Source: Branchiostoma floridae
Lineage: Eukaryota > Chordata > Leptocardii > Amphioxiformes > Branchiostomatidae
Reading direction: 5' to 3'
Assembly: GCF_000003815.2 (NCBI RefSeq)
Contig: NC_049995.1
Span: 11,700,933-11,764,932, forward strand
DNA: 64,000 bases
The position numbers and the translations under genes are program-made. Below are positions 20,501 through 57,030 of the stretch, in pieces; the first letter of the stretch is position 1; every line of letters begins with the position of its first letter. Under the pieces are notes generated by a model. It ran no database searches. It was given only the letters and a program-made list of their open reading frames with translations, and had not been told where the DNA came from.

Positions 20501-23500
20501 ATGGCTGACGCAGACAACATCAGCGCGGTTCGCCCTCGTTCCTACCAAAACGAAAGCTATCTGCACGGGTTTCTTGGAACTGTGGGTGACTTACAGAAGG
20601 ATGGGGTACTGCAGGATGTCGTCCTTGAAGTCGAGGGCCGGCGGTTTCCCTGCCATCGGCTTGTTCTGTCCGCGGCCAGCCCCTACTTCAGGGCCATGTT
20701 TACAAGTGACATGGCGGAAAGTCGGCAAAAGACAGTTGTTTTACAGGTAGGGTTGGCATGACTAGAATGAAACATCAAATATTAAACTTCCCTTTGATGT
20801 GTCCCTCATCATAACCCCCTCCCATTTACGTAGAAAGGTTTAAGTAAAGGTCAATATATTGCTGTTTTTTTTTTGTTTTTAAGTCTTTTTTTCACAACGA
20901 GAAACTGTTTACTAGAATTGTGCATGTAGAATTATTCTATATAAATAACGGAATGGGCTGAGAATTTGAACATACTTATCTTTTAAAACTTTTTAACACA
21001 TGTACATAATATTATAGTTTCGTACTATGGGTTTGAGCATTGTAATGTTCTTCTGTATTCTTCTGCAGTGTTTGGATGCAAGCATTTTCGGGGAGATCCT
21101 GAGGTACATCTACTCAGGAACCCTACATGTGTCTATGGACAAAGTGCAGTCCCTTTACCAGGCAGCTGACCTCCTCCAACTGGGCTATGTGAGAGACACC
21201 TGCAGCAGCTACATGGCCATGAACGTGGAGCGCTCCCACTATATGGACTTGTACAAGTTTGCTGATGTCTTCTCCGTGAACGTTGTTCGTAAAGCTTGTC
21301 TGCAGATGATCCGTAGAAACTTTGTTGAGGTGGGTCGAATGTGTTGATAGTAGCTCACTTCATTCAATTCCCTACCATACAAGGTTGATTCGAATTTGAA
21401 TGAGTTTGTGTGTTTAAAACGTATTGCATGTTACACTTTGTACCATTTCTGCTCGTTCAAGTATATAATGTTAGACGTTATTTTAGAGGAAGTCATCCAC
21501 AAATTTTCATTTTGGGACCATAGCTGTCCGCAGCATAATATAGAAGAGTAAAACCCACTTTTCATGCCTTATTACCTCCATGAAATGTCATGGAGGTTAT
21601 ATTTTACCCTGTGTTTGTCTGTGTGTGTGTCTGTGTATGTGTCTGTGTGTAAACAAGATAACTCAAGAACAGTTGGGTGGATTGGTTTCATACTTGGTGT
21701 GTTGGTAGTGTGTGATGAAAGCTGGAAATGATTAGATTTTGGGCCCCCTTGCGGCTCCCCTTGGTACTGCAGCAGAACTTCCGGATTTGCTATCTCGGTG
21801 TTTTGAACATGCTATGGTCACGATTTTTTAGTATTAGATAGCTCTTGTGCACAGGAAGAAATGACATGAGTTTGGGTCCCCTAGCGTCTAGTTTTGGGAT
21901 AGCAGGCGCATTTTTGTCAAAAACTTCTGAAGACGATACTAGTAACTCGGAACAACGAATTTTCATGATTTTTGGTATGTAGGCACCTTTAATAGACAAT
22001 TTTGTACAAGGTAAGATACTAATTATGCAACATAGGAATGCATTTGCATAATTAATGAGAATATTCTATCATAGCAGTTTTTTCTATGTATCTCTTGTCC
22101 TGGACATGATATGGTCTTGACATTTGGCTGGTAGATAGGTTGCAGTGTCATGACAAAGTGGGGCAGGTTTCAGCCCCCTAACATTTAATTTTGGAACTAC
22201 AGGGGCATTTTTGTCAAGACATTCCAAAGAGGATAACTGCAGAAAGAATTGACGAATTGGCATCATTTTAGGCATGCAGGTAGCTTGGGCAAAGATGTTC
22301 ATAATGATATGTATGATATGCAAATGAGGACTTAATTTGCATAATTAATGAGGGAATTGTATAATTCCATTGTTTGCAATAACTGGACTTCAATAAATGT
22401 AACACTTGTTAATTATGATAGGTGGAATATAAGCAGAAACCAAATATGGTAATGAGGAACTAATTTGCATAATTTATGTAAAAATGGTAAAACCGCCCAT
22501 TGATTAATGATCACCATGCATACATTATGTTAATGTGTTATTCAATTGCATGAAATTCACAAAAGCTCTAAATATTCATGGAGGTATGAGGTCGCCGAAC
22601 TCTAGTTTGTAACTACTAGTATTAGTCTTAACCAATTAAAGTTGTTCCCCATAGTACCACACATGTACAGTACATGTACTCTTCATCTCCACAGGTTGCC
22701 TCCAGCGAGGAGTTCTGCAGCCTGAGTATAAACCAATTGACTGAGATCATCAGCCACGATGAGCTGGATGTTAAAGAGGAGATAACAGTGTGGGTGGCTG
22801 TGGTGAGATGGGTGCAGTACAGCAGGGAGGACAGGTGGGTATTATACAATTATGAATATTGATGTCTACATTGTGTTTACATCATGTGCCATGCATGACT
22901 GCAAAGGCTTCTATGTTGGTTGATTGAAGTGGCTTCCCTCAGTTTGTCTATGTGATTCAATATCCCTGACTTCTATGCAGTAATATAAACACGTTTATAT
23001 CACTCCCATGTCAACCCCTACCCTGTTCCCTACAGACTGCACCATCTCCCCAGCATCCTCCCTCACATCCGCTTTAACCTGCTGACCTCAGACAACACGG
23101 CAGCCATCTTAGGACACCCTCTGGTCAAAGAGGATCCTGGGAGTTCTGAGGTCATCAGGCATGTTATACAGAAATGGAAGCCCAACCTGAAGCCGAGGCT
23201 TGGGATGACAACAGAAATGGTTATGCTGTCCAATACTGAGTCAGTACATACTTCTTCTTCGTATAAATTTCTAGGTCTACAATCCTTGTGCAGGGTTATT
23301 CTTCATGTTGAGGTCCTGTTTTACGCATTTTCAGAGTCTTACTCTAGCCTCTAGTAGTGCTCTGTACCAACTCATACTGAATCCCATTTCTCTGTGGCTA
23401 CAAGATTAGATCGAAATATGATAGTAGTAGTTGTTGTGATTTCGGCCTTATTTCTGAGGAAAAGCTACGAGTTTCCATTCCAGTTTCATGAAAGAATAAT

Positions 23501-24439
23501 TTGTGTTCTATCCTATTCAGTTCGAAAGAGCTCCTTTTCATGAACCCTCTGGAAGGGAGGTACATCAGCTGCAGTTACAAACCAGAGGACTTCCCTTGCA
23601 TCACAGACGTGACAGTCACCAGAGATAACAACATCTACATCCTGACTCGTAAAGAAACGAGTAACGGTGAGTTGTCCGTGCTGAAGTACAACCATGCGGG
23701 GAATGTGTGGGAACATGCTGGTATGTCCTCAGTATCTAAGTCGCTGAGACTGGACAACGATTCTACATGGTACGATGAGCACCTTGTTGAAGTTGATGGG
23801 ATTTTGTACTATCTTGCTGCCGATGTAGAGGATGACAGTGGATTGGTGTGGATGAGAAAGTACAACTGGCTCACAGACCAGTGGCAGGAGTGTGCACAGC
23901 TGCAACTTGACAATACTGAATACGACTACAGTGAAGCATTGGCATGCAGTTCACACCTCTATTTCCTGACAAGCTTGGAACTGCATCGCTACGACCCGAG
24001 CCAGGACCGTTGGTGCAAGCGGAGCCCAGCATCAGAGCCCGATCTTGACATCTATTCAGCCGTTACCATGGGAACAGATGTGTTCTGCGCGGATTGTGAC
24101 TTCAGACAGACCATGATGTACGACACAGAGTCAGACCGTTGGCAGAAGCTGCAAGGCTGGCCGAACAAAGGAAACCGTAAAGTGAATAATTCTCCCTGTC
24201 TTTTCGTAATGGACAACCAGCTCCACATATGGTTAAGCTGTCTCAATGACGACGATATTAACGACGAACATCTCGTATATGTGTACGACAGGTCTGCTGA
24301 TGCCTGGAGAGACTTGAAGGCTACTCTGCCAAATAAGACATATTTTTCGCCTGCCCTTATGTACCCTGTGGCACGTATGTACCTACCATACCTTAAGGGG
24401 GCACAAAAACACATCACTTCTTACGCCTGTCAGCGTTAA
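20501..24439 (+). CDS. K1: BTB-BACK-kelch protein, 589 aa
   Basis: Likely Cullin-3 E3 ligase substrate adaptor. Exons: 20501-20746, 21069-21329, 22695-22834, 23036-23239, 23521-24439. Phases are 0,0,2,2, all GT-AG. The start MADADNISAV matches the paralogues; an in-frame ATG at 20438 is upstream and not conserved. Exons 1-2 (residues 1-169) form the BTB domain and 3-box ([19 protein letters not shown], then YKFADVF). Exons 3-4 (to about 284) form BACK. Exon 5 is a divergent kelch propeller with five clear Y(D/N)-x5-W blade ends (for example YDPSQDRW, YDTESDRW, YDRSADAW) but without the usual Gly-Gly pairs. Intron 4 uses donor GTCAGT, chosen over a nearby GTACAT to keep phase. Intron 2 holds a MITE. 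Polyadenylation signals lie at 25022-25031. Confidence 0.87.
21574..22605 (+). repeat. MITE-like repeat (TCATGGAGGT family), copy 2, in K1 intron 2
   Basis: Opens with the hairpin ACCTCCATGA-aatg-TCATGGAGGT (21574-21597), then a GT/CTGT-rich run and 'actcaagaacagttggg'. Closes near 22605 with ATTCATGGAGGTATGAGG. It shares its interior with copy 1 at 19737. It lies wholly inside the intron (21330-22694), clear of splice sites. Confidence 0.65.
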
Positions 24440-25800: not shown

Positions 25801-25813
25801 TGACCTTTGACCT
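25801..25813 (-). promoter_or_regulatory. Perfect DR1 upstream of K2
   Basis: TGACCTTTGACCT, whose complement is AGGTCA-A-AGGTCA: two exact half-sites with 1-bp spacing, 20 bp before the K2 ATG. This is the best-preserved copy of the box shared by the array. It could bind an HNF4/RXR/COUP-TF-type receptor, or lie in the 5' UTR. Confidence 0.55.
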
Positions 25814-25833
25814 GTAGCATCATCATCATCAAC

Positions 25834-28800
25834 ATGGCTGCCGCAGACCAAGAACCCCACGTCAGCGCAGTTCGTCCTCGTTCCTACCAAGACGAGAGCT
25901 ATCTGCGCGGATTTCTTGGAACTGTGGGTGACTTACAGAAGGATGGAGCACTTCAGGATGTCGTCCTGGAAGTCGAGGGCCGGCAGTTTCCCTGCCATCG
26001 GCTTGTTCTGTCCGCGGCCAGCCCCTACTTCAGGGCCATGTTTACAAGTGACATGGCGGAAAGTCGTCAGAAGACGGTTGTTTTACAGGTAGGGTTGGCG
26101 TGACTTGTGGTTTAGAATTGGGTGGAACAGGCAATTTCCAATGATGCAAAAGAACACTAAAACAACGGAAATCCATTGTTTACCCAAACCAGAAGCAAGA
26201 ATTGAATATGTTGGAGTTCAGGGTAGAATCTACAAAAATGTGAAAATAAGCTCAAGTTTGTTCGTTTTCCCAGAAAAAACACTTTGAAATGACCCCCAGC
26301 GGAGGTCACCATACTGCAGCCGTCACACGGAACTAGAGGGAACAGGATTCGTGCACGAAATTCTACCCACCCAAACAATCATCGCAACCCAAGTCATACA
26401 GCCTCAAAACTTACGTATTCCTCAACTATCCACCACTCGGTGATGTGCACATAAAAATTCTATGGCTTTTCAAGTACTGCGACGTACTACTAGTATTTTG
26501 TGCCCGACCTACTTTTGACCACGGGGGTCGCCCATAAATACTGTGTTATGCGACCTTAACCTTATTGTTATGTAGAGGTCAAAGGTCCGTCAAGGAGGGT
26601 AAAGGTCAACTTTGCGCGTCACCTTATCATTATATGCATTTTTTAAAAACTTTTGCTATCAGAAACACATTGCTATATGTGCAAATTGCTAAAAATTATG
26701 TAGATACAATAGCAGAATTGGGTGATTTTTCACCATTATGTATTAAAAGAAATGGCATGTATTACTATGTAGACGTTTGAACATTTTGACATTGTATTCT
26801 TTTGCAGGGTATGGATGCAGGCATGTTTGAGGAGATCCTGAATTACATCTACTCGGGAACCCTTCAAGTATCGATGGACAGAGTGCAGCCCCTGTACCAG
26901 GCAGCCGACCTCCTCCAACTGGACTATGTGAGAGACACCTGCAGCAGCTACATGGCCATGAATGTGGAGTGCTCCACCTGTGTGGACCTGTACAAGTTTG
27001 CTGATGTCTTTTCTCTGGACATTGTCCAGAAAACTTGTCTGCAGTTGGTCCTTACAAACTTTGTTGAGGTGGGTCTGATATTTTGACAGTTTGTAATTTA
27101 ATTTTTTTTCTTCCCTTTCATAGTTAGGTGGCTTTGTATCCCTCTTGAAATCCTAGACGGATGAGTGTGCTGAAATGCAATTTACAGTAATAAGTAGAGA
27201 GACAACAAGGTGTTATTTTAGAATATGTCATTTAAAAAAATGAATGTCTTAACCCCCACCCCCAGAATGATAAAAAAGGATAATATAACTTACTTTTCAA
27301 TTTTCGTCATCATCATCAGTTTTAACAAGCCTTTACTAGTGAAAGGTTACTTTTCACCATACCATATATGTACTCTACTCTTCCACAGGTTTCCTCCAGC
27401 AAGGAGTTCTGTAGCCTGAGTGTGAATCAGCTCACTGAGATCATCAGCCACGATGGGCTGGATGTTAAAGAGGAGACAACAGTGTGGGAGGCTGTGGTGA
27501 GATGGGTGCAGCACAGCAGGGAGGACAGGTGGGTGTCATTATATGTATGAAATATAGGTGCCTTTAAGCCCATAAGCAGTTACTCAAGCAACTGGATATG
27601 ATTTTGGAAATGGTCAGAAGTTTCAAATAGAATCCACTAGTTTTCGTCAGTGACACTGAAGAGATCTTGTTGAAAAGGTTTTTTATCCTAGCTGTGAATT
27701 GGTATGTAATGGAGATCTAGTTGAAGAACAGGTTTATCCTAAATAGGAATTAATCTGCAAAAAGGGAGGAAGACATTTTTTTCAATAGACCTAAACCTAC
27801 AAAGGTAAGACAAGTTAAGACGAATACTAGTGGATGCTCGTTGAAACGTCTGACCGTTTCCAAAATCATATCCATTTGCTTGAGTAGCTGCTTTTCGGCG
27901 TATCTTATTACCTGGATGTCTAACCTTCATCGACATATAGATGCCTTTCATTTGCCTTTGCTAATGGTATGGATGCATTGTTAACCTTCATTGATAACTG
28001 AAACTTGATTTTATTGATGGCATTAATGGCATTATCAGTGACATAATTCAACATCCACGAATGTTCTACAGTGTTGTGAAATAATGTCCCCTAAATTCAC
28101 CCCTACCCTATATCCTCCAGACTGTACTGCCTACCCAGCATCCTTTCTTACATCCGCTTCAACCTACTGAGCTCAGACGACACGACAGCCATCTTTGAAC
28201 ACCCCCTGGTCAGGGAGGATCCTGGAAGTTCTGAGGTCATCAGGAAGGTGGTACAGAAAGGGAACCCCAACCCCAAGCCAAGACATGGAATGACCACAGA
28301 AATGGCAGTGCTGTCTAATTCGCCCAGCAAGTTAGTATACTTTTGTGTCTAGCTCTGTAAGATATGAACAATCTTTGAACAATATCATTCCATTTTGTAA
28401 TCTTGCAATAAATGTACTATTCATTAAGTTTTAACATAAACTTAAGGTACTTAAAGTAATTTGTTAAGGAGTTACAAGACTTTATAGAATAGTGCATATT
28501 GTGATTTTAGCCTTATCCCTGTAGAAATATGAGTTTCCTGTCCAGTTTTGTTGACAGTTTCCAATGCATTTTGTCCTCTCCAGGTCCAAGGAGCTTCTCT
28601 TCATGAACCCACAGGAAGGGAAGTACATCAGCTTCAGCTACAAAGCAGAAGACCTCCCTAGTTTTACATGCATGACAGTCACCAGTGATAATGATATCTA
28701 CATCCTTGAAACTACAAAATCAGAGGATAAGAATCAGCTGTCCCTGTTCAAGTACAACCATGCAGAAAACGTCTGGGAACAGGCAGGTGTATCCACTATA

Positions 28801-29454
28801 TCTAACATGAGACCGGACTTTTGCTCGGAAAGCCTTTTTGAAGTTGATGGGGTTTTGTATTTCATGTTTGTTGAAGCTGGAGAAGACCATGCATTGCCAC
28901 AGATCAGAAAGTACAACCAGCATACAAACCAGTGGCAGGAGTGTTCACGTCTGCAACTTACCAGAACTGTATATGAGCATGCAATGTTGTCCTGTGGCCC
29001 AAACCTGTATTTCCTCACAGACATGGAAATGCATAGCTACGACCCGAAGCAGGACCGTTGGCGCAACAAGAGTCCACCAATACTCATACCGGATGTCAGC
29101 ACAGCCGTTGCCATAGGAACAGAGATTTTCTGCACGGATTTTGAATTCACTCAGACTATGGTGTACGACACATTGTCAGACGGATGGCAGGAACTGCAAG
29201 GCTGGCCGAACCCAGAAAACTTTGATGTTAAATGCCTGCCCACTTTTTTCGTACTGAAGAACCAGCTGCACATATTATTAACCTGTACATCTGAGTCCCA
29301 GGAAGGGTACATTCATCTGGTGTATGTGTATGACAGGTCTGCTGATGCTTGGAGAGAGTTGAAGGCTAATCTGCCTAATAAGGAGTATTATGCAGGTGGT
29401 TCTTTTTCCCCTGTGGCACGTATATACCTGCCATATCTTAAGGGGCATGCATAA
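25834..29454 (+). CDS. K2: BTB-BACK-kelch protein, 578 aa
   Basis: Likely Cul3 adaptor. Exons: 25834-26088, 26808-27068, 27389-27528, 28121-28330, 28584-29454. The phases are as in K1. The N-terminus (MAAADQEPHVSAV) is three residues longer than in K1. Exon 1 differs from K1 at few positions, while exon 5 differs at many (for example SFSYKAEDLPSFTCMT against SCSYKPEDFPCITDVT), so substrate-facing loops have diverged. Blade ends visible in exon 5 include YNHAENVW, YNQHTNQW, YDPKQDRW, YDTLSDGW and YDRSADAW. Two further DR1-like sites lie in intron 1 (26576-26588 and 26597-26608). An AATAAA at 29962-29967 follows a 15-base poly-C run. Confidence 0.87.
26576..26608 (+). promoter_or_regulatory. 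Pair of DR1-like sites in K2 intron 1
   Basis: AGGTCAAAGGTCC (26576-26588), an exact DR1 apart from its last base, followed by GGGTAAAGGTCA (26597-26608). The second site corresponds to the intron-1 site found in the other copies. Confidence 0.45.
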
Positions 29455-31412: not shown

Positions 31413-31448
31413 ACCCTTTGACACCAGGGTCATACCATCATCATTAAC

Positions 31449-34400: not shown

Positions 34401-34560
34401 TGTGTATGACAGGTCTGCTGATGTCTGGAGGGACTTGAATGCAACTCTGCCTAATAAGACATATTTCTCACCTGGCCCTATGTGCCCTGTGGCACGTATG
34501 TACCTACCATACCTTAAAGGGGCACAAAAACATATCACGTCTTACGCTTATAAACGTTAA
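31449..34560 (+). CDS. K3: BTB-BACK-kelch protein, 594 aa
   Basis: Likely Cul3 adaptor and the closest paralogue of K1. Exons: 31449-31703, 32223-32483, 32806-32945, 33151-33354, 33636-34560. Its intron 4 and the start of exon 5 are almost identical to K1, whereas intron 3 and exon 4 differ at many positions. The C-terminus (GAQKHITSYAYKR) is shared with K1 and K7. Exon 3 has Tyr where most copies have Cys (EEFYSLS). The exon 3 donor (AG|GTGGAC) is weaker than in the paralogues. Intron 1 has lost the conserved stretch with the DR1-like site and holds a TTCGCGG-repeat element instead. AATAAA signals lie at 35154-35163. Confidence 0.87.
31850..31960. repeat. TTCGCGGTGACCAC repeat element in K3 intron 1
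   Basis: Contains AATGTTCGCGGTCGATTAAT, then a tandem TTCGCGGTGACCAC pair and the inverted word CACCGCGAAC, giving a small foldback. Related but decayed words ('aaaatgttcgaggtg', 'catcgcgaacgtaaaatcacc') occur near 41725-41815, so it is dispersed. Confidence 0.55.
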
Positions 34561-36452: not shown

Positions 36453-36473
36453 TATCATACCATCATCATCAAC

Positions 36474-43186: not shown

Positions 43187-46100
43187 ATGGCCGCCGCAGA
43201 CCAAGAACTCCACGCCAGCGCAGTTCTTCCCCGTTCCTACCAAGACGAGAGCTATCTGCGCGGGTTTCTTGGAACTGTGTGTGACTTACAGAAGGATGGG
43301 GTGCTGCAGGATGTCGTCCTTGAAGTCGAGGGCCGGCGGTTTTCCTGTCATCGGCTTGTTCTGTCCGCGGCCAGCCCTTACTTCAGGGCCATGTTTACAA
43401 GTGACATGGCGGAAAGTCGGCAGAAGACGGTTGTTTTACATGTAGGGTTACTGTGATGTGTGGTTAGAATTGAGCGATCTATAGGGGACATTCATGGATT
43501 CTACGTATCATAGGGGAAAACCCATTTTTACCAAAATATAAAAATCTCATTTTCTGTGTCCCTCGCTATGCCCCCTCCCCACTTACTGACGTCTTTGGTA
43601 TGTAGGGTCAAAGGTCAACATAGTGGGTCGCAAATTACAATCATGAGCGTATGTTTTTAACAAAAAAATAGTTTCTTATAGTTAATGTCAACATTTCGTT
43701 ATATGTTCAAGACGTAGTAGAGGTAGGGTTACCGTGATGTGTGGTTAGAATTGATAGAGTAAAACAGAAAACTTTAAAAGTCCCTACGTATCGTAGAGAA
43801 CTGTTATTCATTGTTAATCAACCCAAAGCAAGCAAGGCCCTATCCACTTACTAGTACTGACCTCTTTGTTATTAGCCCTTTCACAGAGGTTACTACTAGC
43901 ACGCATGTGCGGGAAATAGGTATCCTAGGAAATTCTAATGTCAAAGGAGCACTTAGTCATTTCGACCAACAATGTCCGGAACGTAATGGCAACGCAAAAT
44001 GGCGAAATGTTTCCGTTCTGGGCCCTTCACCTTTGACATACCACCCAGAATTCCTGTCGCCCGCACATCCGTAGTGAATTCTGTGATTTAGCTAATTCAT
44101 GAGCTAAAAATCAACTTGGAAAAATCATTATGAGCATGTATCTTTAGCTAAAATAGAATAGGTTACAGTTATTAGAAACAGATCAGGAACAAGCATGTGA
44201 AATAAGAAAAGTAGAGCGTAATCAGCGTATACAGATAGAATAGCTAAATAGGATAAACATTTGATCTTCATTTGGTAATCAAAGTAATACGTGATATTTT
44301 CTCCCTGATAACAATAGGTTAAATGGAAAACGTTTGGACATTGTTACATTACTTTGTTTTGCAGTGTTTGGATGCAAGCGTTTTGGGAGAGATCCTAAGT
44401 TACATCTACTCAGGAACCATCCATGTGTCCATGGACAAAGTGCAGCCCCTGTACCAGGCAGCCGACCTCCTCCAACTGGACTATGTGAGAGACAAATGCA
44501 ACAGCTACATGGCCATGAACGTGGAGCGCTCCACCTGTGTGGACCTGTACATGTTTGCTGATGTCTTCTCTCTGAACAATGTCTTGATACTTTGCCTGCA
44601 GTCGATCCATAGAAACTTTGTTGAGGTGAGTCTATTATTTTAGAAGGTTACGTTTTCTCTCCCAGAAAGGGTTTGGAATCTGTCAAGAAGAGTTTTCATT
44701 CATTAGATTCTTAGCTGTTATAGAAGAATAGAGCAAACTTTTGATGCTATTTTTTTTTTCAGTTTTCACAAACCGTTACCAATGAAACTATATATGTACA
44801 TGAACTCTGTACCCCATGCACAGGTTGCCTCCAGCGAGGAGTTTTGCAGCCTGAGTGTGAATCAGCTGACTGAGATCATCAGCCACGATGAGCTGGATGT
44901 TACAGAGGAGATAACAGTGTGGGAGGCTGTGGTGAGATGGGTGCAGCATAGTAAGAAGGAGAGGTATGTTTTGATGTCTACCTTGTCTCTACTTCATTGC
45001 ATAATTGACTGCAGAAACTTTCTTCTTTTGGCAAATGGCATTTGCTACTTTTAAGGTTTGTTATCCCAGAAATCTTTGCAGCAAGGTAAAAAATAATGCC
45101 ATCATCTATCCTGTAGACTGCACCACCTACCCAGCATCCTCCCTAACATCCGCTTTAACCAGTTGACCTCAGACGACACGGCAGCCATTTTAGAACACCC
45201 CCTTGTTAAGGAGGATTCTGGGATTTCTGAGGTCATCAATAATTTGATACAGAAAGGGAACCCCGCCCTGAAGTCGAGGCATGGGGTTACCATGGAGATG
45301 GCTCTGCTATACAAGTTAGAGCATAGGTTGGTAAATACTTTTTCTTTATCATTATATATTCGTTGGATTTTCTACGACTTGAACAATTATCTATACTAAA
45401 GCAACTTTTTGTAAGACCACAAGACAAAATTTCGTGACAGTGTATGTTGTGGGTTTGGTCTTATCCGTAAAGAAAAGGCATGACTTTGCTGTCCAGTTTC
45501 ATTTGAGTTTGCAATTTATTTTATTCCCCTTCAGTTCAAATGAGCTCCTCTTCATGAACCCTCGGGAAGGGAAGTACATCAGCTGCAGCTATAAAGCTGA
45601 AGACTTTCCTGGTTACACAGCCACCACAGTCACCGGTGATAACAGCATTTACATCCTGAAAACAAAAAAAGAATCAGAGGGAGAGGAACAGCTTTCTCTC
45701 TTCAAGTACAACCATGTAAAGAATGTTTGGGAACTTGCAGATTTGTCCTCAACATCCAGGGAACCGGGAACCCACATCAAGTACCTTTTTGAAGTTGATC
45801 AGATTTTGTATTACATGTATATCATTATGGTTGATTATTACGATCCATCTCGAAAAGTTCCGTTGAGAAAGTACAACCAGCACACAAACCAGTGGCAGGA
45901 GTGTTCACAGCTACGACCGAAGGACAGTAGATACCACGGTGACTGTGCAGCATTGTCCTGTGGCGCACACCTCTATTTCCTCACAAGCACGGAAGTGCAT
46001 CGCTACGACCCAATGGAGGACAGGTGGAGCAAGCGGACCCCACCGGGGATCATTGATGTAGTCCATACAGCTGTTGCCATGGGAACAGAGATTTTCTGTA

Positions 46101-46424
46101 CAGATCTCTACTTCGATAAGACCATGGTGTACGACACAGAGTCAGACCGCTGGCAGAAACTTCAGTTTGCCGCCCCCTGAACACGATTATATGGATGTTG
46201 ATCCTAGTCTTTTCGTAATGGAGAACCAGCTGCACATATTCTTAAGATATATTAGTGACTTTGAGGAAGAAGAAGAAGAAGACAAATATCGGGTATATGT
46301 GTATGATAGGTCGGATGACGCCTGGAGAGACTTGAAGGCTACTCTGCCCAATGAGAGTTATACAACGTGTGCCTGCTATTGCCCTGTTGCACGTATCAGT
46401 CTACCATATCTTAATGGTACATGA
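43187..46424 (+). pseudogene. K5: BTB-BACK-kelch gene with a one-base frameshift
   Basis: Exons: 43187-43441, 44365-44625, 44824-44963, 45117-45326, 45535-46424. Exons 1-4 are intact and in phase. In exon 5 a run of five C's (46173-46177) leads straight to a TGA at 46178-46180, and the remaining kelch blades (from PPPEHDYMDVDPSLFV to the C-terminus) read on in the next frame to 46424. One base too many in the C-run accounts for this. The exon 1 donor is CAT|GTAGGG where all other copies have CAG|GTAGGG or CAG|GTAAGG, and the upstream TGACCT box is lost (CACCTTTAAACCC). An alternative exon 4 donor at 45315 is possible. The homopolymer could be a sequencing error, but three weakened features together favour a decaying gene. 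Without the shift it would give about 584 aa. An AATAAA lies at 47473-47478. Confidence 0.75.
43605..43617 (+). promoter_or_regulatory. DR1 site in K5 intron 1
   Basis: GGGTCA-A-AGGTCA, a near-consensus DR1 (13 bp), at the same relative place as in K4, K6 and K7. It is kept although the upstream box of this gene is degenerate. Confidence 0.5.
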
Positions 46425-48171
46425 AAACATTATGTTGTACTTTCCAATATTTATAAGCAAGATAAGAATATGTCAAAGACAATGCAAAACCGATTAACAA
46501 CATTTGTTGAGATCTCGAGCTATCTCCAATGCCCATAAATGGGACAGCTTTTATATTAGATTTCATTGTTGGGTACAACTTTACAGACATACTTTCTTCT
46601 TTCTAGTATAAGGGACTGATGTAACGGTTATGACTTACTTAGACTTACATGTAGACTTAGTATGTCTTGTTTCTAGTAACACATTGGGCAGCAAGCAGTC
46701 TCCATTCAGGGCGGTTCTGACTCAAATCAGTAGTTAGTACCTGATGTAGTCAGCCAGGTACCATCCTGATTTACTAGGCCTCCCATGCTGTTCTCAAACC
46801 AACTCACGATCTAGTTTGTGAGTGGAGAGTATGTAAGCCCTGGTAAAGTACAAGTAGCCAATGCTGTCACATTTCCAAACGGTGTCCGGGTCGGGCAGCT
46901 TTCGGGGACGAAAAGTATAGTATTAAAGAGAAAGAAGTACACACAACGCAATAAATCGGTCATAATTTGTATATATTCCTTGATGTGAAAATATTTTTGT
47001 TAGTTCCCCCAAATATCCCGGCTGACCCTAGGTTTGAAAATGTGTCCGTATAAAATGCCATCCATGCTAAGACATATAACCTTTGTGAAGCTTTTGCAAT
47101 AATTGTACACGTAATTCAACGGTAATGTTCAACTTGTACATTTGATACGTTATTTGCGAGGTGTAGGTAACATTTTGTGTTGATTACTTTGCAGTTTTGT
47201 TTCACTAAAGAAGCCAGTTGCGAAGTTACATCTATTCATTTTTAGATCCTGTGTATTTTTTTTCTTGCCGTGTGCGATTAATTTCGTAACTTTATATGTT
47301 AGCCTGACTAAGTTGCACTTCTGGATACCCATTACTGACCAGGACCCTCTGGACGTCGTAGAGCCCAGGACGGTGACAATTTGTTCAATACAATTTCATT
47401 TAGATTATGCCGGTTGACAAGTTTCCCAGTTGTGTTTGAAAAATGTATCGTCTTGTGTCATTTTTTTTAAACAATAAACACCTACTGATGGAACAAAGAG
47501 TCGTTCTTTTGTGAACTGCTATACATTATGATCAATACGGATCATTGTACTTTGTAGAAGCGACCAGGACATGTCAAGTTCCATGGTAGTGTAAGAAACC
47601 AAAAATTGCCAGAAATTCTTGTTTTCATGCAGTGTCTTGGAAAAAAAAAACATTTATGATTTGTGTCTCTTTGAATACCACTAAAGATGGCAGGTAAAAT
47701 GCAACTTATACTGTAAAGTGTTAATGCAGGTTATCAGTCAGATAAACCTCTCGTGGAAGGTTATATTTTGACAAGATTTTTTTATTCACTTCTGGTGATT
47801 GTAACTCGCTGCCTCTATGGTCTCTATATCTATCAAGTGTCAGGACCTTCTCACGTAGTAGTTGCCCTCGGACTGCCAATGCACCCAAAATCCGTCTTCT
47901 TGATATATGATAGTAAGGTATTAATGTATTACTCCGAGTGGGCCTAAAACGTAGTAAAAGAGATCCGAGCCAAAAAATGAAAGGCTGCATTGAAGCGTGT
48001 TTTAGCGGTCAAAAAATTTCTCTAAGCCAGCTAAAGTGATCTCAAAAGTTAGATTGGTGAAAGTTTGATTTCAACTGAGGAAAGTAGCAGGTAAGGTTTG
48101 GCAGCCGCTCACTTGGTCGGAGGTACACAGTGCATACTGCTACGCTATGTAGATAATCAGTGTATATAACT
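46425..48171. other. K5 3' flank and K5-K6 spacer
   Basis: Contains AATAAA at 47473-47478 in the shared context 'acaataaacacctactgatgg'. No further gene is recognised. Confidence 0.45.
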
Positions 48172-48184
48172 CACCTTTGACCTT
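48172..48184 (-). promoter_or_regulatory. DR1-like box upstream of K6
   Basis: CACCTTTGACCTT, the same 13-mer as upstream of K1, 18 bp before the K6 ATG. Confidence 0.45.
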
Positions 48185-48202
48185 ACTTTAATCATCATCA
48201 AC

Positions 48203-51200
48203 ATGGCTGCCGCGGACCACGTCAGCGCAGATCGTCCTCGTTTCTACCAAAACGAAAGCTATCTACACGGTTTTCTTGGAACTGTGGGTGACTTACAGAA
48301 GGATGGGGTACTTCAGGATATCGTCCTTGAAGTCGAGGGCCAGCGGTTTCCCTGCCATCGGCTTGTTCTGTCCGCGGCCAGCCCGTACTTCAGGGCCATG
48401 TTTACGAGTGACATGGCGGAAAGTCGGAAGGAAACGGTCGTTTTACAGGTAGGTTCGGTGTTACGTATGGTTTTAGTAGAGTGAGAAAGAGAACTTCCAA
48501 ATGCGGTACGTATCACAGACAACGTAAAAATAATAGAGAAAACCCATTGTTTACCAAACTACCAAATATTGAAATGTCCTTTGATGCCCATAATCCCCCT
48601 CCCCATCTACTGGCCGCTCCTTGGGGTTAAAGGTCAACTTTGGAAGGAGTGGCTGTAGTAGACACACACGGTGTTATACCGCGCCTTTACGGAGTGGCTG
48701 AAAACATGTATTTTCAATTGAAAACACAGTTTTACAGTTATCAGAAACGTGTGGCTATACGTGCAAATAGTAGCTGTGGAAGTGAGAGCAAGGAGTGAGT
48801 AAGTGAGCAAATAGAGTAGAGTTACTTATATAGGACCTTAATAATAATATTTAATAATAAAATGAAAATGTGACTCTCATATTACAAAAGAAATAAATTT
48901 GTGATATTTTCCCCTACTATATATATACATGTACCCCAATATATGAAACGTTTGCACATTGTTGCATTTTATTATTGTTTTGCAGGGCTTGGATGTAGAC
49001 ATTTTTGGGGAGATCCTGAGTTACATCTACTCGGGAACCATCCATGTGTCCATGGACAAAGTGCAGCCCCTGTACCAGGCAGCCGACCTCCTCCAGCTGG
49101 ACTATGTGAGAGACACATGCGGCACCTACATGGCCATGAACGTAGAGGGCTCCTCCTGTGTGGACCTGTACAAGTTTGCTGATGTCTTCTCTGTGGACAT
49201 TGTCACAAAGAGTTGTCTGAAGTGGAAGGCCAGTCACTTTACTGAGGTTGGCCTTCATACCGGGTTATTCAGATATTACAAATAGCAATTCCATTTTGTA
49301 TTATTTATATTGCACACACTGAAATTGATATAGAACTAAAGAAAATATGTGATTGAAATTTGGAAATGAAGCTTTGTATCATTTATGGAAAATAGACCCA
49401 GCATAACAAAATGTCTTTGAAAAAAGACCAGGGGTGGGTTACGGTACAGAAAATACAGGTTCGGTTCAGGTTCAGAGCATCAGGTCGACCGGTCCATAAC
49501 CTGGACCTGAACCTGGACCTGATTCAGTCTGAGAGAACGTGTGAATGGACGATACTCAGAATGATGGTCAATTTCGCAACAAAAAAAATCTGTATTTTTT
49601 TTGGGGGGGGGGGGGATTCAACTCCCACTGGCATTTTAAAATTATACAAGGCTAACTGCCTCTACAATTGACTGTAAACTTGGTAGAAATGACTATAGAC
49701 TCTACTTTACTTCGCTCTTGTTATTTTTCTAGACCGGTAAGCCCCGAAACATGTGAATTCATGATCATATAATCTGTTTATTTTCCAAAAGGTCCAACAT
49801 TCGGTCTACCAAATTTTTTCAGGTCCGGTTTTTCTGGACCGGTCGAAGAAGAAAAATTGGTTTGGTACCAGTACCGGTACACGGGTGTACCGGTACTGGT
49901 ACCAAACCATTTTTTCTTCTTCGACTGGTCCAGAAAAGGCGGATCTGAAAAAATTACACCAGTGTACCAGTACCCGGCCCCAATATGGACACTTGAAAAT
50001 AAGAACATTTTGATGTGCAAAGATTATGTGTGACAGGTCGTTGAGTGATGAAACAAACTGCTACTTTGCTGCGTGCTTGAGAAGCTGGTGTGTTATGCCG
50101 ATGTGCGGTTGTACTGGCTGTACAACTACAGATACAAAGAATTTAGTTGTATTTTCGATCAGCATAATACAAGTTGCCATATACACATTTACTCTTGTAT
50201 GTCCGAACAATATTAATTCACACACATCGTGTATTTTGCATCTCTACAGGTTGCCTCGAGTGAGGAGTTCTGCAGCCTGGGTATGAATGAGCTGACAGAT
50301 ATCATCAGCCACGATGAGCTGGATGTTAAAGAGGAGACAACAGTGTGGGAGGCTGTGGTGAGATGGGTACAGCACAGCAGGAAAGACAGGTGGGTGTCAG
50401 TGCTGTATAAGTGAATACTGTGGTTTTAAAATGCAAAAAACATGTAAATAAATGACTATGAAACATGTTTGATAAAGACGCTGCTGCCTTACTACAAAAT
50501 CAACTGAAGCCACCCCTAACCCTGAACCCCACAGACTGCACCACCTACCCAGCATCCTCCCTCACATCCGCTTCAACCTGCTGACCTCAGACGACACGGC
50601 AGCCATTTTGAAACACCCGCTGGTCAAGGAGAATCGTAAGAGTTCTGAGGTCATCAGAAAGGTGACACAGAAAGGGAATCCCAACCTGAGGCCGAGGCTT
50701 GGAATGTATACAGAAGTGGCCATACTGAAAAATTGGGCCGAAAAGTTGGTTTATACTTATTTGTTAGATTTTTGAAGCTGTGAACAGTCCTTGCACAATA
50801 TTATTCCACATTTAATTGTCCTGTAAGCATTGGATATACAATGTATCTAATTCAGAACTACATATATTCAAGGCCATTTCCTAACAGACTACATGATTAC
50901 ATTTCATAGAACAGTGCATGCTGTGATTTCAGCCTCATTATTATACTAGTAAAAAGATTTAACCCTATTCAGACCAGGCCTTTTTGGGCATCCCTGGTGC
51001 TTTTGAGGCCCGCTCTTTCTGACTCCTATAACTCTAAAACGATTTATCATATGGCCACCAAATTTTTCGAGCATGATGTAGACATAATATCTAACAATTT
51101 AAAGATAAATGACGCAACGATGACTCAATGTAATGTAATTATGACGTCATCAATTTGACCTTATTGGCTGGAACCATGAAAAGGCGGTATTCCCAGAAAA

Positions 51201-52759
51201 CTTGAAGGCATGCTACAAAAATGTAACCGCAAGTGCAGATGACAGTCTCTATCTAAGATACCAGTTGGGCTCCACCATCTTATATCTACCTCCTTGAATG
51301 TTCAAAACTATATTATTGGCGATAAATAATCGCGAAAGACAACGGAAATAGACTAAGAATGTTCATTTAGACGTTTTTTATGAAAAAATACCAGTTAGTT
51401 ACAACTTATTAGAGATAATAAGCTAGTTATTCTTGATCTGTTCACACCGTCCGCCATCTTGGATTTTTGCCCGTGACATCATTACATCAGCATAATTTAT
51501 GCAAAATTAATTACGAAAGATATTCTAGATAATGTGCGATGTAATATACGTAAGAAAATAGCAGTGATATAGCAAATAAACGTGAAAATACATTGTTAGA
51601 ACCGAAATTTGCGATTTTCGTCAAAAGTGTCTGTCAATAAACGGTTGCCATGGCAACAAGAAAAATTGAATATTTTCAAACATTGTAAAATTCTTCCCAA
51701 CTAATTTTAGGAAAAGTCACCAAGTTTGTTTGGTGACTCTAGCGTAAGCCGTTCTTGGTGACTCTAGCGTATGCCGTTCTGGCGTTATGCGACATGAAAG
51801 TTCATGGACCTCAAAAGCCTATCCCCAATCTGAATAGGGTTACGTTTCTTCAAGTCCATATTTATTTACAATTTCCGATGTGTTTTTCCTTCTCTAGTGG
51901 CATTGAGCTCCTCTTCATAAACCCTCGGGGAGGTAAGTTCATCAGCTGCACTTACAGCCCAGAAGACCTTCCTCGTCCTTCACACATGACAGTCACCAGT
52001 GATAACGAGATCTATATCCTGACAAGAGAGGAATCAGAGGTTGAAACTCAGCTGTCCCTGTTTAAGTACAACCCTGCTAAAAACGTGTGGGAAGATGCAG
52101 GTGTGCCCTCAATATCTAGAGAGCGGCATCAGAAGTGGTCTTTCTTCAAGGAACTGCTCTTTGAAGTTGATGGGACTTTGTATTACGTTCCTGTTGATGA
52201 AGATCGGTCTTTGGTGCAGATGAAAAAGTACAACCGGCACACGAAACAGTGGCTGGAGTGTTCACCGTTGCACTTCGACGATTTTGAAGACGGTGATGAC
52301 CCCCCTCATGCACTGTCTTGCGGTTCACACATCTATCTCTTAGCAAACGAGGTCATGCATCGCTACGACCCGAGCCTGGACCAGTGGAGCAAGCGAACCC
52401 CACCGATGGACATGCCTGAACTCTCTACAGCCGTCGCCATGGGAACAGAGATTTTCTGCGCAGACGTTGACTTTACTGATACCATGGTGTACGACACAGA
52501 GTCAGACCGCTGGCAGAAACTGCGATGCTTGCCAAACGCAGAAGACCTTGATATTGATGATCTTCCCTATCTTTTCGTCTTGGAGAATCAGCTCCACATA
52601 TTGGTAACCGGTGCATACAACGCACCTGTGGTATATGCGTATGACAGGTCTGCTGATTCCTGGAAAGACGTAGCCACCCTGCCCAATGAGAGATATCATG
52701 CGTATGGTTGTTCTTCCCCTGTGGCACGTATATACCTACCATATCTTAAGGAGGCATAA
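48203..52759 (+). CDS. K6: BTB-BACK-kelch protein, 572 aa
   Basis: Likely Cul3 adaptor. Exons: 48203-48448, 48986-49246, 50250-50389, 50535-50744, 51898-52759. The short N-terminus (MAAADHVSADRPRF) resembles K1 in length. Exon 4 ends KNWAEK and joins across phase 2 to NGIELLFINP. The kelch exon is one of the shortest (287 codons), with blade ends YNPAKNVW, YNRHTKQW, YDPSLDQW, YDTESDRW and YDRSADSW. Two introns have been invaded: intron 2 by a foldback element (49433-49983), and intron 4 by a TTAA element that ends only 58 bp before the exon 5 acceptor TCTCTAG. An AATAAA lies at 53432-53437. Confidence 0.87.
48624..48636 (+). promoter_or_regulatory. DR1-like site in K6 intron 1
   Basis: GGGTTAAAGGTCA, identical to the 13-mer in K4 intron 1, at about 176 bp from the donor. 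Confidence 0.45.
49433..49983. mobile_element. Foldback element in K6 intron 2
   Basis: Imperfect inverted ends (GGGGTGGGTTACGGTACAG and the complement of TGTACCAGTACCCGGCCCC). Inside lies a nearly perfect hairpin at 49809-49958 with arms of about 74 bp around a GG centre at 49883-49884, rich in GGTACCGGTAC words. Related to the element at 35612-36064. A poly-G tract at about 49601-49614 lies within it. Confidence 0.65.
50959..51843. mobile_element. TTAA-type MITE in K6 intron 4
   Basis: CCCTATTCAGA (50963-50973) and TCTGAATAGGG (51829-51839) are perfect 11-bp inverted ends, flanked by TTAA on the left and TTAC on the right. Inside are GGTTGCCATGGCAAC, 'gcgttatgcgacat' and 'gccatcttggattttt', all of which also occur inside the 42-kb element, so the two share ancestry in their cores. 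No open reading frame. Confidence 0.7.
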
Positions 52760-53742
52760 AAACACTACTTCTTGCGCGCACATTTTTCAGCGTTGATGTA
52801 AATTATAATGATCTAGAGAGCACTGTTCACTGGACCGTTAAGTTCAATGAAAATTTTGTTTAGGTCTCGGGTTTTGCCGAATGCCTCCACTTTGTGAGAG
52901 GCCTTATGATATCGCACTTTTATACTTTTATGTAGCAGTTTGATCTTTGACAAAAGCCTTTGCTTTTTTCTTATAATTATCGGACATTTACGGAATTGAA
53001 ATTGTGTTTCACGTAAGTGCCAATTTGGGACTGACCGAAGTGATTTCTTGTGTCTTCAGGTCTAACAACAGTTGTTATATCTTTCGTAAAACTTTGACAT
53101 TTTCTGTAGTTGTATTGTATTATTAGATTTCTAATGTTACTTATAGTGTGCTTAATTTTGTATCTGTTTTTTCGTACGTCATATACGTTAGCCTAACTAA
53201 ATCACACAGGTAGCAAACCTGACACTGGCTAGACCCCCCAGGGAGGGACTAGATCCCTGGCTGGTGAAATGTTGTAACGCCGTGAGGAATGATGAGGATC
53301 ATACGGACTAACTTGTTATATGTTCTCTGATCTTAACTCTTGCCAAAGAAGCTACTTTCAATGTTATACACATTTAGTTAGATTGCACCAGTTTTTATGT
53401 TTCTATATATCTTTTCGGATCGAGTTTCAACAATAAAGATCTACTGATAGGTACAAATACATCTATGATTTTTAAATTTCTTAATTAAATTACACAAATC
53501 AACTGTCGATTTGCATGATATGTATTTTATTGTGTGCGTCATTACCTAAGCTATATAAACACAGAAAGTCATTGCAATCCTGACTGATGTGTTACGCCAA
53601 AGTGTGGTTTTATGCCCTATGTCGATATCGATACAGATACAGATCCGTCAACACATTCTAGAGATATTCTCCTGTAAGCTTTGCGACAAAATCGACCCCC
53701 GTACTTACTGTTACATTATGTGGGTAATCAGTGTGTACCTTT
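52760..53742. other. K6 3' UTR and K6-K7 spacer
   Basis: 3' UTR to AATAAA at 53432-53437. The last 60 bases carry the array's upstream words (TTACATTATGTGGGTAATCA). Confidence 0.5.
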
Positions 53743-53755
53743 TGACCTGAGGTCA
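53743..53755. promoter_or_regulatory. TGACCT-G-AGGTCA site upstream of K7
   Basis: In K7 the shared CCTTTTGACCT box is directly followed by GAGGTCA, giving two diverging half-sites with 1-bp spacing. It is 17 bp before the ATG. Like the boxes in the other copies it is of nuclear-receptor type, but the arrangement differs. Confidence 0.45.
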
Positions 53756-53771
53756 TACCATCACCATCAAC

Positions 53772-56700
53772 ATGGCTGCCGCAGACCACGAAACCCACTC
53801 CAGCGCAGTTCGGTCTCGTTCCTACAAAGACGAGAGCTATCTACACGGTTTTCTTGGAACTGTGTGTGACTTACAGAAGGATGGGGTACTGCAGGATGTC
53901 GTCCTTGAAACCAAGGGCCGGCGGTTTCCCTGCCATCGGCTTGTTCTGTCCGCGGCCAGCCCCTACTTCAGGGCCATGTTTACAAGTGACATGGCGGAAA
54001 GTTGGCAGAAGACGGTTGTTTTACAGGTAGGGTTGGCGTGACGTGTAGCTAAAATAGAGTGAAGCAATGGCCGTTCAAATGTGCTATGTATTATAGAGAA
54101 CACATCAAGCAGTAATTTAAAACTCTTGGTTAAACAAAACCAACAAATGTTTAACTTCCCCTCAATATATTCCTCGCTATGCCCCCCTCCCCACTAACTG
54201 ACCTCTTTAGTATCTAGAGTTAAAGGTCAACTTTGCGGGCCACTCGTAATCATCATGAGCATCTGTCAACTTTGCGNNNNNNNNNNNNNNNNNNNNNNNN
54301 NNNNNNNNNNNNNNNNNNNNNNNNNNNNNNNNNNNNNNNNNNNNNNNNNNNNNNNNNNNNNNNNNNNNNNNNNNNNNNNNNNNNNNNNNNNNNNNNNNNN
54401 NNNNNNNNNNNNNNNNNNNNNNNNNNNNNNNNNNNNNNNNNNNNNNNNNNNNNNNNNNNNNNNNNNNNNNNNNNNNNNNAAGAATTGTATGTTGTACATG
54501 TATTGTTTTGCAGGGTATGGATGCATGCATGTTTGGGGAGATCCTGAGTTACATCTACTCAGGAACCATCCATGTCTCCATGGACAAAGTGCAGCCCCTG
54601 TACCAGGCAGCCGACCTCCTCCAACTGGACTATGTGAGAGACACCTGCTGCAGCTACATGGCCATGAACGTGGAGCGCTCCACCTGTGTGGACCTGTACA
54701 AGTTTGCTGATGTCTCGTCTGTGGACATTGTCCGGAAATGTTGTCTGCAGTGGATCACCAGAAACTTTACTGAGGTTAGTCTTCATATTGGGTGGGACAA
54801 TAAGCATGTTCAGGGTTCCAACTACGCATGTGTAGTGACAGGAATGCAGCTGATATGTCATGGGCTAAGGCCCCTAAGAATTTGCACATCAAGACATATT
54901 CTCAAGGAGAACTTTTACAAGCCAGATCTTCAACTTTGACATATTATCCATAGTTTCTGTTGAAGCACATGCATACTGGGAACCATGGATGGGCTTATTG
55001 TCTAAAATAGCAATCGCATTTTTACTAGACTGTATGAGATAAAAGTGAATTACATGGAAATGAAGCTTGCAATGGAAAATAGATTCAGCATAACAAGAAA
55101 TATTGTTAAAAGAAGACATTTTGAACAATTTGTTCAAAGTCAGTTAAGCTAGCCATGTTTGTTACCATGTTTGTGAACAAAGGTTATGTGTGACCTCAGT
55201 GTAATATAACCAACTGCTGCTGTGCCTTGTGCCTACATACTTTGTGTTTTTGCTAAACTGGCTGTACATGTACAGATGCAAAGTAATCACTTCCCTTTTG
55301 ATTGGACTTTAATCATATGAAAATGTTCTTGTATATCGAAACTGGATTAAGATACACATACCTATACCTCCACAGGTTGCCTCCAGCGAGGACTTTTTCA
55401 GCCTGAGTGTGAATCAGCTGACTGAGATCATCAGCCATGATGAGCTGGATGTTAAAGAGGAGACAACAGTGTGGGAGGCTGTGGTGAGATGGGTGCAGCA
55501 CAGCAGGGAGGGCAGGTGGGTGTCAGTGTTCTTCTGTTGGTACATAACTGTCTTTTATTGAGATGTAAGCTTGATTTTTCATCAAGCTGATAAGATACCA
55601 GACAATCAGCTACATCTGCCTCTACCCTGTTCCCTACAGACTCGACCATCTACCCAGCATCCTCCCTCACATCCGATTCAACCTGCTGACCTCAGACGAC
55701 ACGGCAGCCATCTTGGAACACCCCCTGGTCAATGAGGATCCTGGGAGTTCTGAGGTGATGAGGAATGTGGTACAGACAGGGAACTTCAACATGAAACCAA
55801 GGCTTGGGATGACCATGGAAATGGTTATGCTGTCTGATATATCTGACACAGCGTATGTACATAATTCTTCGCTTCACTCTCTATGTCGAGAATAATCTTA
55901 GCAAAATGACAGTCCATACTTTGTGTTCCTGCAATACTAACTTTCACATTATCAGTCATGTAGGTAACCTCTGCATCTAATTCAAACTTATACTTGCTAA
56001 GCACCTTTATCCTAGACCACACGGCGTGATTTAATGAATGCCATTAGTGCATGTTGTGATACGTATACGTTTCCTAATCGGTTTTATTGACATTCTTTGA
56101 TGTATTTGATTCAGGTCAGATGACCTCCTCTACATGAACCCACAGAATGGGATGTACATCACCTGCAGTTACGACTACCTTCCTGATTCCATAACTATGA
56201 CAGTTACAAATGATAACAACATTTACAAGCTCGAAAATGAGCAGGAGGATTATTATCAGTTGTCAATGTTCAAGTACAACCATGCAGAGAACGTATTTGA
56301 ACATGCTGGTATGTCTTCAGTATCTATGTTCCGGAGAGAGTACTCAGGTTTATCATCTCACTGGGATCATTTCCTTGTTGAAGTTGACCAGATTCTATAT
56401 TACGGTGCTGCTGATCTGGGAGAAGGCAGTGCATCGGTGCGGATGAGAAAGTACAATCGACACTCGGACAAATGGGAGCAATGTTCACAGCTGAAGCTTG
56501 AAGGAACTTGGCGCTTCAGTACGGCATTGTCTTGTGGTCCGCACCTCTATATCCTCATGGACTCAGCAATGTATCGCTACGACCCACGCCAGGACTGTTG
56601 GTGCAAGCGGGCTCCACCGAATATCACAGCTCGTTACTCAACTTTCACAACCGTTGCCATGGGAACAGAGATTTTCTGCTCAGATTTTGACTTCACTCAG

Positions 56701-57030
56701 ACTATGGTGTACGACTCAGAATCAGACCGCTGGCAGAAACTGCAAGGCTGGCCAAACCTAGAAAACCGTAGTGTCTATTGTACTCCGAGTCTTTTTGTGC
56801 TGGAAAACGAGCTGCACATATTGTTGGAAGTCTATGGCAAACAAGGTCCATCAACAGACTATCTCGTATATGTGTACGACAGGGCTACCGATGCCTGGAG
56901 AGACTTGAAGGCCATTCTGCCTAATAAGGAGTATTATGCACCTAATCCCATGTGCCCCGTGGTACGTATGTACCTACCATACCTTAAGGGGGCGCAAAAA
57001 CACATCACGTCTTACGCTTATCAGCGTTAA
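53772..57030 (+). CDS. K7: BTB-BACK-kelch protein, 594 aa
   Basis: Likely Cul3 adaptor and last gene of the array. Exons: 53772-54026, 54514-54774, 55376-55515, 55640-55852, 56115-57030. Intron 1 contains a 203-base assembly gap but both splice sites are visible. Exon 1 has LETKGRRF where the others have LEVEGRRF, and ESWQ for ESRQ. Exon 3 has SSEDFFSLS. Exon 4 is three bases longer than in any other copy, with phase kept. The kelch exon has blade ends YNHAENVF, YNRHSDKW, YDPRQDCW, YDSESDRW and YDRATDAW. The C-terminus GAQKHITSYAYQR groups it with K1 and K3. An AATAAA lies at 57455-57460. Confidence 0.86.
54217..54229 (+). promoter_or_regulatory. DR1-like site in K7 intron 1
   Basis: GAGTTAAAGGTCA, at the position equivalent to K4 and K6, about 190 bp into intron 1. 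Confidence 0.4.
54277..54479. other. Assembly gap (203 N)
   Basis: Run of N inside K7 intron 1. It does not touch an exon. Confidence 1.

Follow-up and report, generated by a model that had tools for sequence, protein, structure and literature searches.

Similar BTB-BACK exons and diverging kelch exons in a large amphioxus family of probable CUL3 adaptor genes

We analysed 64,000 nucleotides of the Branchiostoma floridae genome (contig C17, NC_049995.1, positions 11700933-11764932; this whole stretch is called the window), in which seven tandem BTB-BACK-kelch genes, c1 to c7, all on the + strand, span window positions 20501-57030. Silent divergence among the seven is low in exons 1-3 and high in exon 5, and the histories of these two parts are unrelated in the 45 complete genes compared. 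We consider it probable that exon-limited gene conversion makes exons 1-3, with the beginning of exon 4, evolve in concert throughout the family, so that the docking half of the proteins stays alike while the kelch part evolves mostly by descent.

In the mechanism that we propose, the BTB domain and the 3-box would dock on CUL3 and the kelch propeller would bind the substrate, as expected from family and fold. Repeated exon-limited gene conversion, together with purifying selection on the protein, would keep exons 1-3 and the first half of exon 4 alike, and this homogenisation would reach across chromosomes (51 genes). The introns would mostly be too diverged to be copied along. The long kelch exon would mostly escape conversion and evolve by descent, its changes clustering in substrate-face loops, and the outcome would be a repertoire of one docking module with many heads.

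Divergence by exon in the array

Each of the seven genes has five coding exons in phases 0/0/2/2, and all 28 introns are GT-AG, which bears out the array of seven copies with common exons and phases given in a preliminary description of this DNA. The lengths of exons 1-5 are 246-255, 261, 140, 204-213 and 862-925 nt, the shortened exon 5 of c5 having 646 nt. The BTB domain is split across exons 1 and 2, BACK lies on exons 2-4, and the kelch propeller is encoded by the end of exon 4 and exon 5. A tblastn search of the window with the seven proteins gave 239 matches, none of them beyond the 35 exons and a remnant in c5.

Mean nucleotide identity among c1-c7 was 0.92 in exon 1 and 0.66 in exon 5. 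Over the 21 pairs, synonymous divergence (dS) averaged 0.17, 0.23, 0.25, 0.44 and 0.82 for exons 1-5, and nonsynonymous divergence (dN) 0.055, 0.129, 0.093, 0.222 and 0.397. Exon 1 dS ranged from 0.09 to 0.27 and was lower than exon 5 dS in every pair. The jump to high silent divergence sits within exon 4, not at an exon border. The wide difference in exon 5 noticed earlier is thus evident, whereas the wording that exons 1 and 2 are near-identical at silent sites was too strong, their dS being low but not negligible. The similarity does enter intron 1, as had been said: in a gapped alignment it covers roughly the first 50 nt of the intron and roughly 90 nt before the ATG, and without gaps it fades about 20-40 nt from exon 1. 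The 3' end of exon 2 is variable.

Maximum likelihood (ML) estimates of dN/dS (omega) for the seven genes were 0.47, 0.58, 0.42, 0.55 and 0.62 for exons 1-5, and the codon tree lengths were 0.86, 1.55, 1.31, 3.00 and 5.17. Because tree length climbs while omega barely moves, the exons appear to differ in overall divergence more than in constraint, and the diversified look of exon 5 comes mainly from the lower divergence of exons 1-3 at sites of every kind. The distinctness of exon 5 is no argument for adaptive diversification, and we rejected that reading, since the contrast is as large in dS as in dN. The preliminary description had pictured a common core with a varied target half and had named equal divergence of all exons, after modelling of gene conversion, as speaking against it. 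The homogenised exons 1-3 and the diverging propeller agree with that picture, but a contrast in selective constraint between the exons was not found; omega stays at 0.42-0.62 throughout, and these near-equal values come close to the named counter-evidence.

For introns, an ungapped profile and coverage by blastn took the place of a global alignment of the ends against shuffled sequence, which was uninformative. The pair of c1 and c3 is recent, each exon having a dS of 0.12-0.21; their introns 2-4 align at 80-99%, and their first introns do not align. Among the other 20 pairs, no blastn match was obtained in 11, 19, 15 and 17 pairs for introns 1-4. These data bear on the explanation that the 5' exons are simply younger, a recent burst of duplication or exon shuffling having joined one BTB-BACK block to older kelch exons. 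Such a burst would account for the low dS of exons 1-3 in all classes of pairs and for c4, whose exon 1 is close to that of c3 (dS 0.09) and whose exon 5 is far from that of c3 (dS 1.30). The introns should then have travelled along, yet between window copies whose exon dS is low, introns 1-3 mostly cannot be aligned, in contrast to introns 2-4 of c1 and c3, and we regard a younger 5' block as very improbable.

Exon histories in the window and across the family

One strong candidate for a conversion tract was found in the window. Over 460 bp, c1 (23193-23652) and c3 (33308-33767) differ by two mismatches; the tract runs from the end of exon 4 across the entire intron 4 into the beginning of exon 5, and its limits were set post hoc at the flanking mismatches. 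Mismatch was about 10% in the 170 bp before it and 6% in the 350 bp after it. With a background of 5-8% and limits chosen afterwards, a run like this has a binomial probability of 2e-8 to 2e-14.

The exons also gave conflicting trees. In exon 1, c3 grouped with c4 (bootstrap 77), and in exons 2-5 it grouped with c1 (91-100). The exon 1 tree was rejected by the exon 5 data by 126 log-likelihood units, and the exon 5 tree was rejected by the exon 1 data in the approximately unbiased test (0.003). A GENECONV-like test on the coding sequence detected runs in exon 1 for c3-c4, c2-c4 and c1-c4 (corrected p 0.001, 0.008 and 0.043) and in exon 2 for c4-c7 (0.022).

Relatives of these genes were sought in the whole genome (513 Mb, 431 contigs) with exon 1 of c4; 150 of 428 candidates were scored, and the counts are lower bounds. 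At least 128 matches reached an identity of 80% or more over 69 or more of 85 residues, seven of them in the window and four with an internal stop. They lie on C1, C2, C3, C4, C5, C7, C8, C10, C14, C17, C19 and three further contigs, with large groups at C10:20.36-20.51 Mb (25 copies, one strand), C10:1.5-2.3 Mb and C5:0.96-2.8 Mb. Below these, the scored candidates included 16 more at 68-77%, the next being at 52% or less, and three short pieces were not counted. Exon 5 of c7 gave at least 130 matches (129 of 210 candidates scored), and c4 was not among the matches listed. Among the matches listed, the best other than the query itself had 69% identity for exon 5 of c7 versus 96% for exon 1. 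A search of the open literature, which covers few of the subscription journals, found, among the titles listed, none naming this amphioxus BTB-kelch family, and we make no claim that it is absent from print.

For comparison with the window, 44 of the 121 non-window matches at 80% identity or more were picked by hand, mostly from C17 and one C10 array, with none on C1, C2, C4, C14 or C19. All five exons were matched at 41 of the 44 loci: 39 of the first 40 had them in order, and of four further loci two had all five, one had exons 1-4 in the stretch taken and one had exon 1 only. The numbers of genes compared for exons 1-5 were 51, 50, 49, 49 and 45. The exon 5 set omits L014, L018, L021, L042 and L043, and L044 has no exon 5 in the stretch taken; the set with all exons comprises 45 genes (seven from the window and 38 loci), among them c5, whose exon 5 is cut short.

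Median dS within groups, between different groups on C17 and between chromosomes was 0.13, 0.18 and 0.14 in exon 1, 0.20, 0.27 and 0.23 in exon 2, 0.17, 0.21 and 0.22 in exon 3, 0.31, 0.42 and 0.35 in exon 4, and 0.63, 0.94 and 0.74 in exon 5; the groups were set by hand, and some (15.9-16.9 Mb of C17, C5) do not form a single compact array. In Mantel tests on the 45 genes, dS of exons 1-3 was unrelated to dS of exon 5 (rho -0.01, 0.11 and -0.11; p 0.55, 0.12 and 0.86), and dS of exon 4 was correlated with it (0.48, p 0.002). Silent similarity in exons 1-3 is therefore independent of gene history, as in a family that evolves in concert. In the eight pairs that are youngest by exon 5 (dS 0.05-0.24), exon 1 dS is already 0.08-0.20. 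Such values, together with the unrelated exon histories, are hard to obtain from slow silent sites and easy to obtain from repeated copying within a pool, and we infer conversion as the cause, with its direction and rate, on these grounds.

Patterns inside the exons were recorded as well. Association between sites (r2) in exon 1 fell from 0.149 under 15 nt to 0.033 at 15-60 nt and was back to 0.104 at 150-300 nt (18 site pairs); in exon 5 it was flat near 0.06 beyond 15 nt. Silent divergence in exon 2 was U-shaped (0.28, 0.07 and 0.44; edge versus centre, p 0.0002), and the similarity of exon 1 runs on into its flanks. GC content at fourfold sites was 0.57-0.74 in exons 1-4 versus 0.42 in exon 5.

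Several observations weigh against conversion as the explanation. In the window, the Shimodaira-Hasegawa test does not reject the exon 5 tree for the exon 1 data (p 0.12), and the ratio of exon 5 dS to exon 2+3 dS in c1-c3 (1.4, 0.7-2.9) overlaps that of other pairs. In the GENECONV-like test the c1-c3 run was not significant (corrected p 0.72; introns not counted), a c5-c6 run (0.025) falls in exon 5, exons 1-4 taken alone left c3-c4 as the sole survivor (0.026), and third positions alone gave nothing significant after correction. Conversion is usually stronger between neighbours, yet exon 1 dS was higher between different C17 groups (0.18) than between chromosomes (0.14) and was independent of distance inside the C10 array (rho 0.03). 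Exon 1 has no edge effect (p 0.39) and that of exon 3 is borderline (p 0.05); the 5'-to-3' GC gradient could have other causes; and 11 of the 38 conserved fourfold columns of exon 1 are invariant.

The last point makes some silent constraint possible, and it leads to the explanation that silent sites of exons 1-3 are under purifying selection for splicing, mRNA or regulatory signals and look young in the absence of conversion. The lack of a distance effect in the C10 array fits this as well, and so does the lowest silent divergence, which coincides with the most conserved stretch of protein (exon 1 codons 61-70; proportion of synonymous differences, pS, 0.03, and of nonsynonymous differences, pN, 0.00). 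Slow sites, however, predict a lower exon 1 dS in the youngest pairs than in older ones, and the observed values are near those of older pairs (0.14-0.17). Moreover, 71-92% of the conserved fourfold columns in exons 1-3 vary, as do 27 of the 38 in exon 1, mostly through rare variants, and the histories of exons 1 and 5 are unrelated, which silent constraint does not predict. We consider constraint at silent sites unlikely as the main explanation and retain concerted evolution by gene conversion.

A bolder extension of the conversion reading, to which we give less credence still than to silent constraint, is that the BTB-BACK exons form one genome-wide recombining pool that keeps more than 100 adaptors interchangeable, with free pairing through near-identical BTB dimer surfaces and with truncated copies such as c5 as dampers. 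If this were true, ligases carrying two unlike propellers could be assembled in a single cell, which would make the recognition repertoire combinatorial.

Propeller loops and positive selection

Loops of the propeller were labelled from a predicted model; earlier hand-made labels, which carry a risk of circularity, and rule-based labels were also tried. In the 45 genes, amino-acid difference was 0.68 in the BC and DA loops, 0.34 in the AB and CD loops and 0.41 in the strands. In 14 disjoint young pairs, dN/dS was 0.72 (0.61-0.85) in BC/DA, 0.42 (0.29-0.62) in AB/CD and 0.41 (0.35-0.50) in the strands, and gapped columns numbered 126 of 1602, 6 of 518 and 38 of 1915, respectively. The BC and DA loops form the substrate surface of KLHL20, according to an excerpt of PMC6720452. 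Because these loops have that role in relatives, the variation of the amphioxus propellers, as placed on the model, is where targets are expected to bind.

Positive selection by pathogens or another conflict as the main cause of kelch-exon diversity would explain this loop bias, in amino-acid difference and in gaps alike, and the large copy number. It is also favoured by the site models for exon 5, which on the raw seven-gene alignment gave twice the log-likelihood difference of 38 for M8a/M8 and, without c4, still p 1e-5 for M1a/M2a, and by omega of 1.2-1.7 in BC/DA when synonymous branch lengths are taken in common with the remainder of the exon. Given branch lengths of their own, the BC/DA loops of the seven genes have omega of 0.89-0.94, not different from 1, and in the young pairs the value is the 0.72 given above. 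Once columns within three codons of gaps were removed, M1a/M2a was not significant in any of three sets (p 0.09, 0.32 and 0.6); when exon 5 was cut into thirds with a two-codon margin, one of the three gave p 0.04. We did not accept the M2a/M8 signal in exon 5 as proof of positive selection, for it rests largely on columns near indels. The preliminary description had expected site-wise positive selection on the propeller loops; the bias towards loops and the raw signal agree with it, and the loss of signal away from gaps and the low young-pair ratio do not. We therefore think it doubtful, though less so than constraint at silent sites, that such selection is the main cause, and descent of a kelch exon that mostly escapes conversion is preferred.

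Exon 2 ends in a variable patch of its own, codons 74-86 (21288-21326 in c1), which by alignment corresponds to the second 3-box helix. In 50 genes, codons 74, 76, 80, 82 and 86 each have 6-12 different residues, and the first four of these 8-12. A seven-gene test of positive selection in exon 2 was significant (bootstrap 0/200). Local pS was 0.46 in codons 70-83 versus 0.15 in codons 1-69, and the ratio of the four sites to local pS was 1.18. Positive selection at this end was not accepted because local pS is raised as well, and it seems mostly that homogenisation has passed this part of exon 2 by.

Protein identity, parallels and surroundings

All seven proteins have Pfam matches to BTB (PF00651, best E 3.8e-29) and BACK (PF07707, best E 1.6e-26). 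Matches to Kelch_6 are weak; they occur in all seven at E up to 0.01, with c1 under the Pfam cut-off. In the predicted model of c7 the kelch part has 24 strands, fitting six blades, and kelch structures among those listed match it at TMt 0.64-0.74; the propeller of c5 is truncated. The predicted local distance difference test score (pLDDT) is mostly 70 or more from about residue 321 and below 50 in residues 1-106, the BTB part being modelled poorly. By profile search, KBTBD2 is the best solved relative (E 5e-65, over BTB, BACK and kelch), and a fold search with the c7 model placed KBTBD2-CUL3-RBX1 structures on top, at low whole-chain TM (0.40-0.43). All seven proteins have MAE aligned with MSE of KLHL3, a candidate for the hydrophobic-X-Glu motif of CUL3 adaptors.

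These profile and fold matches, with MAE at the MSE position, make CUL3 binding likely as a prediction, and the intact copies most likely encode CUL3 ubiquitin-ligase adaptors, judging from sequence and model. The adaptor role proposed earlier thus gains from the expansion of BTB-BACK-kelch genes and from KBTBD2 as the closest by sequence and fold among solved structures, and binding of CUL3 and of substrates is predicted. Domain order in c1-c7 is the same as in KBTBD2 and the KLHL/KBTBD adaptors. Human KBTBD2 is a single gene; the amphioxus set differs in having at least 128 close copies of exon 1, an intron within the BTB domain and exons 1-3 that are homogenised. The propellers of c1-c7, judged by eye, have no double glycine after the second strand; an excerpt of PMC10146909 describes KBTBD2, 8, 6 and 7 as typically having none in the first and last blade. 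The 3-box of CUL3 adaptors is described in part of PMC11074293, and in c1-c7 it was located by alignment only.

The protein kind is ordinary and its genomic state unusual; comparable arrangements are known, but this one is unusual in its width. Thomas in 2006 reportedly found positive selection in the substrate domain of MATH-BTB proteins of C. elegans. According to the portion of PMC1257465 that we cite, these BTB proteins expanded in a lineage-specific way and are presumed to act as CUL3 adaptors, and they resemble the amphioxus set in this expansion; unlike it, they have another substrate domain, placed ahead of the BTB domain. The zebrafish NLR-B30.2 family, in extracts of PMC4852459, is likewise greatly expanded and lies among zinc-finger genes, as the amphioxus array does, and its conversion acts differently on core and recognition domain, as we propose for amphioxus; its members are NLR proteins, not ligase adaptors, and positive selection is reported in their B30.2 domain. 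Fugu clustered protocadherins, as far as PMC1852091 is excerpted, have one part of the paralogues homogenised with raised GC at third codon positions and another part diverse. The high fourfold GC of amphioxus exons 1-4 resembles that of the converted protocadherin regions, but the protocadherins are homogenised within one subcluster, whereas the amphioxus core is nearly as alike between chromosomes (PMC1852091, in part). In a non-vertebrate chordate, the family would amount to an extensive set of animal ligase adaptors that share one docking half and have many different target-binding halves. It offers a natural setting in which to study how an exon can stay the same across chromosomes next to one that diverges, and its members are concrete test genes for finding the targets that a ligase library of this type degrades.

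The exons, all on the + strand, are located as follows. In c1, exon 1 (N-terminal half of BTB) is at 20501-20746, exon 2 (the rest of BTB and the 3-box/start of BACK) at 21069-21329, exon 3 (BACK) at 22695-22834, exon 4 (end of BACK, start of the propeller) at 23036-23239 and exon 5 (kelch propeller and stop) at 23521-24439. Exons 1-5 of c2 occupy 25834-26088, 26808-27068, 27389-27528, 28121-28330 and 28584-29454; those of c3 occupy 31449-31703, 32223-32483, 32806-32945, 33151-33354 and 33636-34560. For c4, whose propeller diverges most among the seven, they are 36474-36728, 37358-37618, 39111-39250, 39476-39679 and 40263-41181. Those of c6 lie at 48203-48448, 48986-49246, 50250-50389, 50535-50744 and 51898-52759, and those of c7 at 53772-54026, 54514-54774, 55376-55515, 55640-55852 and 56115-57030. 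Runs of N are found at 54277-54479, inside intron 1 of c7, and at 58882-59560.

Exons 1-4 of c5 are at 43187-43441, 44365-44625, 44824-44963 and 45117-45326. Its kelch exon (45535-46180) loses the frame and ends at a premature stop at 46180, giving a predicted product of 503 aa, and a remnant at 46203-46430 is open in another frame. A close relative of c5 to the left of the window, L006, has exon 5 open for 291 codons, and the break in c5 therefore looks recent or is a sequence error. L006 belongs to seven family members, L001-L007, on the - strand at C17:11641717-11693519, which face the array of the window. By exon 5, L007 is nearest to c4, L006 to c5 and L005 to c6, a pattern as after an inverted block duplication.

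A block upstream of the c1 ATG (20411-20500, + strand, limits approximate) is common to 50 genes on several chromosomes. Its consensus contains CCCTTTGACCC, which seems to us reminiscent of a DR1 nuclear-receptor site, and the block is possibly a common promoter or 5' untranslated region.

No Rfam match at gathering score and no tRNA was found in a scan of the window. To the left of the array, C2H2 zinc-finger frames lie at 270-4051 (+) and 17759-18523 (-), and a 718-codon open frame at 6642-8795 on the - strand has a DDE_Tnp_1_7 transposase domain (E 4.5e-71) and is piggyBac-like. Many BTB domains of the same genome occur in long unbroken frames, mostly of about 560-690 aa, packed into other arrays (C4:29.15-29.20 Mb, C1:24.09-24.12 Mb, C5:22.89-22.92 Mb and C8:19.03-19.06 Mb), which look like separate intronless BTB expansions.

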